Shown here piece by piece: positions 10,429 through 12,712 of a stretch of DNA of 64,000 nt; the first letter of the stretch is position 1; every line of letters begins with the position of its first letter. The translations under genes were made by a program, and so were the position numbers. This stretch comes from Aureimonas sp. SK2 (GTDB lineage: Bacteria; Pseudomonadota; Alphaproteobacteria; Rhizobiales; Rhizobiaceae). The notes under the pieces are model-generated. The model was not told the origin of the DNA. It saw only the letters and a program-made list of their open reading frames with translations, and made no database searches. The stretch is taken from assembly GCF_029813115.1 (NCBI RefSeq), contig NZ_JAPZDS010000002.1, forward strand, positions 62,001 to 126,000, read 5' to 3'.

Positions 10429-10872
10429 GTGACGACGCTGAAGGAGTTCGAAGAAGCGCTGAAGGCCCATGGCCTGCGTTCGGCGCTAGATGTCCTGGAG
10501 CTTCTGCGCCGGCGCGACAAGGCGAAGCGCTCGCTCAGCCCCGCCCGGCGTGTGACGGGCCGCAAGATGACGCCCGACCTCGCGCGCCAGATCCTGCACC
10601 TGCACGAGACCACCGGCCAGACGCAGCAGGAGATCGCCTTCCAGCTCGGCGTCAACCAGGGCCGGGTGAACGAGGTGATCAAGCGCGGCAAGTGGCTCAC
10701 CGAAAACCCGGAGGCGCCCGAGGCCAAGGCGCGCGACGCCGCGCTGAAGCGCATGCGGGACAAGCCCGCTGCGGCGTCCCGCAATGCGCGTCCCCCAGGC
10801 AAGGCGGCCATGGTCCCCAAGCGCCGCCCGCCGACGAAGCCCTCGCCGCAGCTCAGCCTCGGCGACTTCTGA
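10429..10872 (+). CDS. HTH protein with basic tail, unknown function
   Basis: 147-residue basic protein. Residues about 45-85 form a predicted helix-turn-helix: TPDLARQILHLHETTGQTQ leads into EIAFQLGVNQGRVNEVIKRG, which resembles resolvase or sigma region 4 type HTH units. The C-terminal part is Lys/Arg/Pro-rich and disordered, and the chain ends SPQLSLGDF. The GTG at 10429 starts the frame; an upstream GGAGGG (about 10408-10416) could serve as ribosome-binding site. It probably binds DNA. The final QLSLGDF loosely resembles a sliding-clamp-binding peptide, which is speculation. Confidence 0.65.
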   Translation: MTTLKEFEEALKAHGLRSALDVLELLRRRDKAKRSLSPARRVTGRKMTPDLARQILHLHETTGQTQQEIAFQLGVNQGRVNEVIKRGKWLTENPEAPEAKARDAALKRMRDKPAAASRNARPPGKAAMVPKRRPPTKPSPQLSLGDF

Positions 10873-10878
10873 CCGGGT

Positions 10879-11382
10879 TCAGCCGGCCAGAGCCTTCTCG
10901 AGCTGCGCCTTGCTCATCGAGGAGCGGCCCTTGATGTCGCGCTTCTTCGCCTCCGCATAGAGCTCGGCCTTGGTTGCCTCGCGGTCGTGCTTTCGGAACG
11001 GCGCGGTCTTCTCGGCGACGTCCGCCGGCTGGGCCGAGAACTGCTTTCCCCGCTTCGTGTCCCGGCGCTTCTTGGCGGTGGTGCGGGCGTAGTCCTCCTT
11101 CGAGAGATGCTCGCGGGCCTCCTTCGGCAGGTAGCGCTCGCCCGTCTTGCCGCTTTCCCGGCCGGACTTCGTGCCCCAGTCCTCTTCCGACCATTGGTGC
11201 AGGCTGTTGTCGTCGGACTTCTCGCCCTTGTAGCCGCCGCCTTCGGCCTTGTACTCGTGGACGGCGAGCTGCGCCTTGCGGGCCGACCATTGGCCGGGCT
11301 TTCCGCCCTTGGCCCCCTTCGTCACCGCGCGCTTCACCTTGTCCCACAGCTTGGGGTCGGTCTTTTCCGCCGTCTCGCTCAT
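10879..11382 (-). CDS. DUF5872-type protein with C-terminal SAP/Rho-N-like helix pair
   Basis: 167-residue, very hydrophilic, Lys-rich protein starting MSETAEKTDPKLWDKVKRAV. The N-terminal part with KAQLAVHEYKAEGGGYKG matches the pattern I associate with DUF5872 proteins. The C-terminal segment EATKAELYAEAKKRDIKGRSSMSKAQLEKALA looks like a Rho-N/SAP helix-extended-helix motif used for nucleic-acid contacts. No membrane or secretion signal. It converges on the HTH gene with a 6-bp gap. Chromatin or stress association is inference from composition. Confidence 0.75.
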   Translation of the reverse strand: MSETAEKTDPKLWDKVKRAVTKGAKGGKPGQWSARKAQLAVHEYKAEGGGYKGEKSDDNSLHQWSEEDWGTKSGRESGKTGERYLPKEAREHLSKEDYARTTAKKRRDTKRGKQFSAQPADVAEKTAPFRKHDREATKAELYAEAKKRDIKGRSSMSKAQLEKALAG

Positions 11383-11456: not shown

Positions 11457-11873
11457 TCAAGCGCGGCTGCTCTCAGCCAGCGACGAGACGATCGGGCAGG
11501 GGCCGGGTGCGCCCGTTCGGCAGGCGGAGGCGAGGTGTGACAGGGCATCGCGGGCAGCCTGCAGTTCGGCGATCCGCGCGTCGAGCGCCCGAACGCGCGC
11601 CTCGGCGAGTTCGCGCGCGCGGGCGCGGTCCGCGACCGCGTCCAGCCGCAGGAGTTCGACGATCTCCTCCAGGGTGAAGCCGGCGGTCTTGGCGGCACGC
11701 ACGAAGCGCAGGCGCTCGGCGTCCGCCTCGTCGTAGCGCCGGAAGCCGCCGCCGGCGCCCGGCCCCGCCGGCCGCTCGGGCCGATCGAGGAGGCCGCGCC
11801 GCTGGTAGAAGCGCACGGTCTCGACGCCGATGCCGGCTTCGCGCGCAAGGCCGGCGATGGTCCAAGTGGTCAT
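11457..11873 (-). CDS. MerR-family transcriptional regulator
   Basis: 138-residue regulator with an N-terminal winged helix (TIAGLAREAGIGVETVRFYQ, then GGFRRYDEADAERLRFV), a dimerisation helix and a short C-terminal metal/thiol loop. It carries C118 and C126, spaced C-X7-C and followed by PIVSSL. The spacing resembles CueR; mercury MerR has C-X8-C. The position equivalent to MerR Cys82 is Arg83, so the three-cysteine mercury site is incomplete. ATG 11873 was chosen because upstream residues lie inside the divergent promoter. It faces the glutaredoxin-MauE gene and most likely controls it through the operator at 11877-11907. The effector may be a soft metal or thiol/redox signal. Confidence 0.88.
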   Translation of the reverse strand: MTTWTIAGLAREAGIGVETVRFYQRRGLLDRPERPAGPGAGGGFRRYDEADAERLRFVRAAKTAGFTLEEIVELLRLDAVADRARARELAEARVRALDARIAELQAARDALSHLASACRTGAPGPCPIVSSLAESSRA

Positions 11874-11876
11874 GGC

Positions 11877-11907
11877 TTGACTCCGTACCGGGGTACGGAC
11901 CCTATAT
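11877..11907 (+). promoter_or_regulatory. MerR-type promoter/operator with 19-bp spacer
   Basis: The -35 TTGACT (11877-11882) and -10-like CTATAT (11902-11907) are separated by 19 bp, the over-long spacing characteristic of MerR-activated promoters. The spacer holds a perfect dyad, CCGTACC-GG-GGTACGG (11883-11898). TTGACT plus CCGTAC/GTACGG closely recalls the classical mer operator. It points rightward, with transcription expected near 11914 and the glutaredoxin-MauE start at 11942. The left edge is 4 bp from the regulator start codon, so the site would also autoregulate. Confidence 0.85.
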
Positions 11908-11941
11908 GGGGTGCGGCCCCCCAATCCGAAAGCCGCCCGTC

Positions 11942-12712
11942 ATGTCCTCTTCCGCCGCCGCCAGCCCTCGCCGCGCCGCCATCCACCGCATGGTGATGGA
12001 GACGCACACCTGCCCCTATGGCCTGAAGGCGCTGGACCTTCTGAAGCGCGAAGGGTTCGCCGTCGAGGATCATCCGCTGCGCACGCGCGAGGCGGTGGAC
12101 GCCTTCAAGGCCGAGCACGGCGTGAAGACGACGCCGCAGATCTTCATCGACGGGGAGCGCGTCGGCGGCTACGACGACACGCGCCGCTACCTCGGCAAGC
12201 GCGTCGCCGACCCCAAGGCGACCACCTACAAGCCCGTCATCGCGATCTTCGCGATGAGTGCCCTAATGGCGCTCGCCATCGCCTATGCCGTGCTCGGCAC
12301 GCCGTTCTCGGTGCGGACGGTGGAATGGTTCGTCGCCGTCGCCATGTGCCTCCTCGCCGTCCAGAAGCTCCAGAACGTCGAGAGCTTCGCGACCATGTTC
12401 CTGAACTACGATCTCCTCGCCAAGCGCTGGGTGCCCTATTCCTACGTCTATCCTTTCGCGGAAGGCCTAGCGGGCGTCCTGATGCTGGCCGGGGCGCTGA
12501 CCTGGCTGTCCGTGCCGGTCGCGCTTCTTATCGGGACGGTGGGCGCGGTCTCGGTGTTCAAGGCGGTCTACCTCGACCGGCGCGAGCTGAAATGCGCCTG
12601 CGTCGGCGGCGCGTCCAACGTGCCGCTCGGCTTCGTCTCGCTCACCGAGAACCTGATGATGATCGCCATGGCCCTCTGGATGGGCGTTCACGCCTTGGCT
12701 TGGAGCGTCTGA
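11942..12712 (+). CDS. Glutaredoxin-like domain fused to MauE/DoxX-like membrane protein
   Basis: 256-residue fusion. Residues about 15-85 form a glutaredoxin fold with TCPYG at 23-27: a single active Cys (C24), the usual second Cys being Gly, plus the cis-Pro loop TTPQIFIDGERVGGYDD. The remainder has about four membrane segments (from about residue 96) and ends like MauE/DoxX redox proteins, with KCACVGGASNVPLG carrying two Cys spaced C-A-C. Function is probably membrane thiol-disulfide transfer or thiol-linked metal/toxicant handling. It lies directly downstream of the MerR-type operator. Start codons at 11990 or 11996 would remove only a disordered leader. Confidence 0.82.
   Translation: MSSSAAASPRRAAIHRMVMETHTCPYGLKALDLLKREGFAVEDHPLRTREAVDAFKAEHGVKTTPQIFIDGERVGGYDDTRRYLGKRVADPKATTYKPVIAIFAMSALMALAIAYAVLGTPFSVRTVEWFVAVAMCLLAVQKLQNVESFATMFLNYDLLAKRWVPYSYVYPFAEGLAGVLMLAGALTWLSVPVALLIGTVGAVSVFKAVYLDRRELKCACVGGASNVPLGFVSLTENLMMIAMALWMGVHALAWSV

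Follow-up and report, generated by a model that had tools for sequence, protein, structure and literature searches.

The 64,000-nucleotide stretch of Aureimonas sp. SK2 analyzed here (contig NZ_JAPZDS010000002.1, positions 62,001 to 126,000; hereafter "the window") contains a divergent gene pair, in which a MerR-family regulator gene on the minus strand and a gene for a glutaredoxin fused to a MauE membrane domain (Grx-MauE) on the plus strand lie around one promoter with an operator of the mercury-resistance (mer) type. This arrangement raises the question of which signal is read by a regulator that shares its DNA site with the mercury sensor and faces a gene outside any mer operon. Our sequence comparisons suggest that evolution rewired the mercury switch toward a copper response, and we consider it probable, though well short of assured, that the locus is a one-promoter copper-stress circuit built on a mercury-switch chassis. 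The reading as copper-type stress is based on the copper-type targets of the same operator and on the CueR-type promoters that precede the same output gene elsewhere.

The class-A regulators and their pairing with Grx-MauE

The window regulator passed the Pfam gathering scores for MerR_1 (57.5 against 21.6 bits) and MerR-DNA-bind (54.9 against 25.4 bits) but remained below the curated cut-offs for mercury MerR (TIGR02051, 100.8 against 150.85 bits; NF010315, 103.4 against 261 bits) and for CueR (TIGR02044, 83.4 against 147.4 bits). The NCBIfam ranking placed mercury MerR nearest and CueR lower, with no model over its cut-off; an assignment as a CueR orthologue was rejected on this score together with the different operator. 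We defined a subgroup, class A, by a score of 150 bits or more against a profile built from 11 relatives; in the class-wide search, scores drop from 174 to 128. A copA-linked MerR of Alteromonas (PMC8478169, cited in part) scored 51 bits against the class-A profile and was rejected as a member.

In an alignment with Tn501 MerR (PDB 5crl), the 11-relative profile has no gap between the conserved Gly-Phe and the first loop Cys, and a conserved Arg (R83 in the window) falls on the mercury ligand Cys82, as the initial annotation had proposed. Among the 80 readable of 81 distinct class-A sequences, the Cys82-equivalent residue was Arg in 72, His in 8 and Cys in none (the truncated MerR of L045, with an unreadable site, was excluded from this count). 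The window regulator has Cys at 118 and 126 only, which bears out the claim of a remaining CueR-like C-X7-C pair; the X7 loop occurs in 78 of the 80 readable class-A proteins, GPCPI in 66 of 80, and exactly two Cys within the matched stretch in 78 of 81. Mercury MerRs retrieved by the same searches (L139, L141 and L232) have Cys at position 82, a loop of 8 and adjoining mer genes. In a quick tree of 121 MerR proteins based on few columns, 70 class-A rows stood on one side of a branch (Shimodaira–Hasegawa-like approximate likelihood-ratio support, SH-aLRT, 96) and joined three mercury MerRs (90), with Aureimonas proteins nearest to the window regulator. On this tree, class A is one clade, sister to mercury MerR. 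The hinge, readable in 57 of 71 class-A rows (the anchor failed elsewhere), is 18 residues long, the length of mercury MerR, compared with 20 in CueR.

We examined the pairing of the two genes from both sides; the loci read from the family, class and phylum searches were the best-scoring ones, and these sets share genomes and are not independent. Within the GTDB family of the window, Grx-MauE was present in 39 of 151 genomes, at 47 loci. A class-A MerR was divergent at 8 of these loci, the very same 8 had the mer-type operator, and regulator and operator were jointly absent at all 39 remaining loci; shuffled upstream regions, a control that ignores phylogeny, yielded the operator in 0 of 940. 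A phylum-wide sample contained the Grx-MauE gene in 54 of 398 genomes, and the best 31 of 67 matches comprised 12 loci with both MerR and operator and 19 with neither. Of at least 592 loci in named genomes, the 80 best-matching ones included 54 with a class-A MerR; the operator was detected by pattern in 53 of these and by eye, with one core mismatch, in L075. These 80 loci were found via KCACVGGxS-type patterns, and the conservation of the CxC motif among them is therefore by construction. The gene also occurs in 298 plasmid records of PLSDB.

A search from the MerR side, independent of Grx-MauE, covered 385, 199 and 398 genomes (overlapping sets) and yielded 27 class-A loci, all with the operator at three or fewer mismatches. 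Grx-MauE was divergent at 25 of them, one copy being frameshifted (L212), and the exceptions were L137, where the operator is followed by a MauE-end remnant, and L227, with another gene. In L137 (positions 1900-2000), the sequence after the operator appears to encode the last residues of Grx-MauE, a deletion remnant, and the regulator gene has kept its reading frame. The L227 target has a homologue on a Sphingobium plasmid, where the annotations of the cluster read MerR, glutaredoxin, DUF305 and heavy-metal P-type ATPase. The two other genomes searched in the window's genus lacked a class-A MerR, which makes the distribution of the circuit patchy. The pairing in related genomes on which the initial annotation had staked its proposal is thus present, though only at 8 of 47 loci in the family, and these observations support a dedicated, conserved MerR/Grx-MauE circuit that is not a mer operon and not universal.

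The operator of the window, TTGACTCCGTACCGGGGTACGG, is located at 11877-11898, and the intergenic promoter (11877-11908) reads TTGACT-CCGTACCGGGGTACGGACCC-TATATG. The core CCGTACN4GTACGG had a single match in the window and no match in 100 shuffles, and the repeat search listed nothing over the operator region. For comparison, we used the mer operator on a deposited plasmid that encodes a MerR with 100% identity to the Tn501 protein; this plasmid reads TTGACTCCGTACATGAGTACGGAAGTAAGG at the equivalent place, and therefore all 18 fixed bases, TTGACTCCGTAC-N4-GTACGG, agree (18/18). The perfect dyad beside the divergent regulator gene, first described as 7-2-7, is real, and each arm is one base longer than claimed. 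Its proposed 19-bp spacer to CTATAT did not hold. Across 71 distinct class-A-type sites (consensus TTGACTCCGTACYATGGTACGGAACCTATAT), the hexamer 20 bp after TTGACT fitted TATAAT in at least four of six positions in 54, compared with 0 sites at 19 bp, 0 at 18 bp and 1 at 17 bp; the −10 element of the window is therefore more likely to be TATATG at 20 bp than CTATAT at 19 bp. L118, one of the 81 class-A loci, carries 5 mismatches in its operator and was scored as missing in the promoter alignment. The 20-bp spacer is one base longer than that of the Tn501-type mer promoter and falls inside the 19-20 bp given for the MerR family in the cited part of PMC9909328. Across 27 whole class-A genomes, the operator was found at 28 places at two or fewer mismatches (3 for the reversed control); 24 genomes had a single copy, G717 and G800 had two each, and G779 had none. 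With one operator in 24 of 27 genomes, the circuit seems to have a single target in most of them.

Copper-type targets and promoters

Targets other than Grx-MauE were found in one sphingomonad family, where the operator occurred at no more than one mismatch in 90 of 342 genomes. We read 105 sites, including L361 and L363, which are other genomes with the same sequence as L359. Directly behind the operator stood Grx-MauE at 84 sites, Cys-rich peptides of about 25-45 amino acids at 10, CopA-type ATPases with YHS and heavy-metal domains at 2 (L267 and L294), CopC at 1 (L305; PF04234, 1e-21) and His/Met-rich exported proteins without a Pfam family at 3 (L274, L293 and L356). The remaining sites comprised a weak DUF6010 match, another MerR gene and an unassigned target (1 each), and two real mer operons, whose MerR is of the Cys82 type. 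A class-A MerR lay beside 80 of the 84 Grx-MauE sites, and in six genomes with an extra site first left without a class-A MerR, one was found in the stretches read.

The Cys-rich peptides (L269, L284, L329, L337, L338, L340, L342, L344, L345 and L346) mostly end in C-x-C-x-P-C-T-C-K-x-C-x-C and look like micro-metallothioneins. A motif scan across 2.17 Mb of loci gave 8 matches, all at these operators, and four of the peptides searched against Pfam and NCBIfam matched no model. Among further arrangements, L234:5772-7364, L293:163-1449 and L356:799-2226 encode exported-looking proteins with His/Met-rich starts and no Pfam match over cut-off; these genes take the place of Grx-MauE under the mer-type operator. 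L309 has a one-mismatch mer-type operator before a co-directional MerR-family gene that scores 124 bits against the class-A profile, and L302 has a mer-type operator at position 194, about 1 kb before a second operator that serves Grx-MauE.

The second line of evidence concerns Grx-MauE loci that do not carry a class-A regulator. A CueR-type site, TTGACCTTCC-N7-GGAA, preceded Grx-MauE at 0-1 mismatch at 12 of the 47 loci in the window's family, none of them with a class-A MerR. Shuffles gave 11 of 940 even at 3 mismatches, and matches at that level (L167 and L179) were accordingly treated as noise. CueR-like genes with an X7 loop and Ser or Asn at the third position were divergent from Grx-MauE in L030 and in the Methylobacterium loci L103 and L114-L116, and many other Grx-MauE copies lay close to a DUF305 gene.

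We also inspected the neighborhoods. Queries for CopA ATPase, multicopper oxidase, CopB, DUF411 and DUF305 gave one or more matches within up to 6 kb at 21 of 54 class-A loci and at 18 of 26 others. DUF411 was present at 13 of 54 class-A loci, whereas 61 whole genomes from the order contained 27 copies in total, the two counts coming from different search programs. MerT was found at 0 of the 54 class-A loci, and MerA/MerP gave one weak match (L108, 45-48 bits), which we take for a heavy-metal domain belonging to a CopA-type ATPase; there were no mer operons among the 54. The idea that the window locus is a remnant of a mer operon was rejected, because no mer genes adjoin it and the regulator is strictly paired with another gene. 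A second Grx-MauE, with 73% identity, is present in the genome that contains the window (L043, contig C34). It lies near a contig end in a copper-type island whose other genes we read as CopZ-like, CueR, CopA, DUF411 and two DUF305, where the labels CopA, DUF305 and CueR are our own reading and DUF411 and the MerR genes are Pfam matches; open reading frames resembling site-specific recombinases follow the island.

Grx-MauE and the layout of the locus

Both domains of the predicted fusion protein scored above their Pfam gathering scores (Glutaredoxin, PF00462, residues 19-74, 34.7 against 22.9 bits; MauE, PF07291, residues 124-247, 51.2 against 27 bits), and its description as a monothiol glutaredoxin joined to a MauE-type membrane domain was correct. 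Cys24, Thr64-Pro65 and Gly75-Gly76, which in glutaredoxins correspond to the active-site Cys, the cis-Pro and the glutathione-binding Gly-Gly, are kept in 156 of 156 aligned rows. L024, which has an in-frame stop, was excluded from one of the alignments. Gly27 takes the place of the second active-site Cys in all 156 rows, which sets the protein apart from the dithiol (CPYC) type. Cys218 and Cys220 are likewise invariant, in a sequence set of which part was retrieved by that motif.

In the AlphaFold2 model (mean predicted local distance difference test score, pLDDT, 82; predicted template modeling score, pTM, 0.61), the MauE part forms five long helices, and Lys/Arg residues are carried by the loop that precedes helix 1 and by those joining helix 2 to helix 3 and helix 4 to helix 5. 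From this charge pattern in one model, the glutaredoxin domain and the CxC loop should both lie on the cytoplasmic side. A thiol relay through the membrane, the output first envisaged for this locus, is thus unsupported, with both thiol sites on one side in the model. Among the best 50 matches listed by Foldseek against the PDB, glutaredoxins lead, and no membrane protein was convincingly aligned to the MauE part. A membrane methionine path for Cu(I) was also considered; 5 of 8 Met columns were at least 95% conserved compared with 9 of 36 Leu/Ile/Val columns, and because Fisher's p was 0.087 we do not claim it.

The Grx-MauE fusion itself is already known as SmGrx3 (SMa0280) of Sinorhizobium meliloti, with an N-terminal CPYG glutaredoxin and a C-terminal MauE domain; the cited part of PMC6315971 gives it low deglutathionylation activity and no mutant phenotype and leaves its function open. 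A pSymA copy from strain ml59 shares 70% identity with the window protein and lies next to a divergent MerR; this comparison is to ml59 and not to the published SMa0280 sequence. The published account lists heat shock as inducer, and its cited passages do not mention a regulator or a copper link. A copper study in Synechocystis (PMC4182526, cited in part) was dismissed as an account of this fusion, as it concerns a CGFS glutaredoxin.

The features of the locus are given in the table. Across the 64-kb window, there was no further match to the copper and mercury queries or to the regulator profile. The nearby frames at 10879-11382 (−) and 10429-10872 (+), with a DUF5872 match and a marginal match to sigma-70 region 4, have no evident metal link.

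Table. Positions of the regulator, promoter and output gene in the window, with predicted functional sites.
Feature	Position	Strand	Comment
Class-A MerR-family regulator, 138 aa	11457..11873	-	Mercury MerR-type DNA-binding part and hinge, C-X7-C loop, Arg for Cys82
Arg83 codon, equivalent to Cys82 (third mercury ligand) in Tn501 MerR	11625..11627	-	
Predicted metal-binding loop Cys118-Cys126 (C-X7-C, GPCPI)	11496..11522	-	
-35 element TTGACT, Grx-MauE promoter	11877..11882	+	
Operator dyad TCCGTACC-GG-GGTACGGA, mer type	11882..11899	.	Perfect arms, 8-2-8
Predicted -10 element TATATG, 20 bp after -35	11903..11908	+	Comparative basis
Grx-MauE membrane fusion protein, 256 aa	11942..12712	+	Domain make-up as in S. 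meliloti SmGrx3
Glutaredoxin domain, monothiol C24-P-Y-G27 (Cys24 codon 12011-12013), T64-P65, G75-G76	11996..12163	+	
MauE domain	12311..12682	+	C218-A-C220 at 12593-12601, between predicted membrane helices 4 and 5

Which signal the circuit reads

For the mechanism, we infer the metal specificity, the inducer, DNA binding and the biochemical role of Grx-MauE as follows. At rest, a MerR dimer on the mer-type dyad in the 20-bp spacer would keep the Grx-MauE promoter off. Within one protomer, Cys118 and Cys126 would then hold cytoplasmic Cu(I), or Ag(I) or Au(I), in linear coordination, since two loop thiols without a third would form a linear site, as in CueR. The partner protomer would supply Arg or His where mercury MerR supplies Cys82, which would make a third thiolate impossible, and this basic residue could neutralize the negative S-Cu-S (bis-thiolate Cu(I)) center. 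The metal-bound dimer would untwist the spacer and RNA polymerase would start, following the family mechanism described in the cited parts of PMC9909328 and PMC5027573, in which the dimer holds a spacer of excess length while at rest and distorts it once metal is bound. The product would be a membrane-bound monothiol glutaredoxin with its CxC on the cytoplasmic face, which may, with glutathione, free copper-attacked protein thiols or pass Cu(I)-glutathione on.

Several observations weigh against this copper scheme. The operator alone does not identify the signal, since two of the 105 sphingomonad sites are real mer operons, and 4 of the 84 Grx-MauE sites there have no full class-A MerR (contig ends in L282 and L347, a broken or divergent gene in L351, none in L341). 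None of the searched copper-type genes lies within 6 kb at 33 of 54 class-A loci, and none was matched in the 64-kb window. The regulator has Arg or His at the equivalent of Ser77 of CueR and a hinge of mercury MerR rather than CueR length. A mutant in Smgrx3 showed no phenotype, heat shock is listed as the inducer of this gene, and the cited part of PMC6315971 makes no mention of a copper trial. Moreover, CopA-type pumps and thiol peptides also fit silver or gold, and the two Cys could instead form a disulfide.

The last point leads to a thiol-oxidation switch, in which Cys118 and Cys126 would become disulfide-bonded or glutathionylated under copper, oxidant or electrophile stress, the basic residue would lower the thiol pKa, and Grx-MauE would reverse the damage and reset the sensor. 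The two-Cys composition (78/81), the nearby Arg or His (80/80) and an output with an intact glutaredoxin domain are consistent with such a switch. We nevertheless regard it as unlikely, because what the operator controls besides Grx-MauE is metal pumps, CopC and thiol peptides and not oxidant defence, CueR-type sites replace the mer-type site at other loci, and Cys-Pro-Ile/Leu at the second loop Cys is common to mercury MerR and CueR. It is more improbable still that the regulator remains a mercury or organomercury sensor that holds Hg(II) linearly between the two Cys and controls a thiol-repair protein. Its sister position to mercury MerR (joined at 90), the shared operator and one genome with a true MerA about 14 kb from a class-A MerR speak for this possibility, but the 54 class-A loci have no mer genes beyond the one weak match read as a CopA domain, MerA is over cut-off in only 3 of 27 class-A genomes, CopC and CopA-type proteins are among the targets, and a C82Y change is reported in the cited part of PMC5027573 to seriously affect mercury binding by MerR.

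GolS and CupR are examples of gold- and silver-type selectivity, and a class-A sensor dominated by silver or gold, with copper secondary, would resemble them. Linear two-thiolate sites also serve Ag(I) and Au(I) (PMC5027573 and PMC9909328, cited in part), and DoxX-type membrane proteins occur in the gold- and copper-induced Gig operons (PMC10304878 and PMC5413113, cited in part). We give this possibility the least weight of all, as the CopC targets and the DUF411 and multicopper-oxidase neighbors indicate copper and nothing seen pointed to gold or silver exposure of the hosts. The copper-stress circuit thus remains our preferred reading. The suggestion in the initial annotation of a metal- or thiol-stress circuit distinct from mer stands insofar as the circuit is dedicated and not a mer operon, and it can be sharpened to copper-type stress; by descent and DNA site the circuit is not distinct, being formed by a sister clade with the same operator.

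Among known systems, class A shares with mercury MerR and the mer operator of Tn501 the sister-clade relationship, the hinge length, the 18 fixed operator bases and the divergent layout, and differs in Arg or His for Cys82, an X7 instead of an X8 loop, a −10 element at 20 instead of 19 bp, the absence of mer genes at the class-A loci read, and its copper-type targets. With CueR/HmrR, it shares the C-X7-C loop followed by Pro-Ile, and CueR-type sites precede the same output gene elsewhere, whereas CueR itself has the operator TTGACCTTCC-N7-GGAA, Ser77 and a hinge two residues longer. In Bordetella pertussis, a divergent MerR-family copper regulator (CueR) drives a glutaredoxin fusion in copper stress from the copZ-prxgrx-gorB operon (PMC7794356, cited in part); there the fusion is peroxiredoxin-glutaredoxin with a CueR box, and here it is a membrane MauE fusion with a mer-type operator. 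The Gig operon of Cupriavidus metallidurans and Legionella encodes a small DoxX-type membrane protein (GigT) that responds to gold and copper and for which a link to glutathione has been proposed (PMC10304878 and PMC5413113, same parts), but lacks a glutaredoxin domain and has other gene content. Neither the listings of our searches in open-access PMC nor the cited parts of papers contained a report of the regulator subgroup, its sharing of the mer operator, the copper-type regulon or the Cys-rich peptides.

Taken further, and held more tentatively than the copper circuit itself, class A may represent an additional MerR metal-site design, in which two loop thiolates capped by Arg or His of the partner protomer read copper-group metals on a mercury MerR body with a mer operator and its own regulon, including an undescribed micro-metallothionein family. 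The circuit would separate DNA-site specificity from metal specificity within one of the best-studied bacterial sensor families, and it offers naturally occurring proteins that, in every readable sequence, carry Arg or His where the mercury ligand Cys82 would be. The function of SmGrx3, left open in the cited part of the review (PMC6315971), becomes directly testable as copper defence, and the tiny Cys-rich peptides are brought to attention. For genome annotation, a mer-type operator or a MerR label does not imply mercury. If the proposed reading is true, cells acquiring mer transposons would have two sensors for different metals competing for one DNA site.

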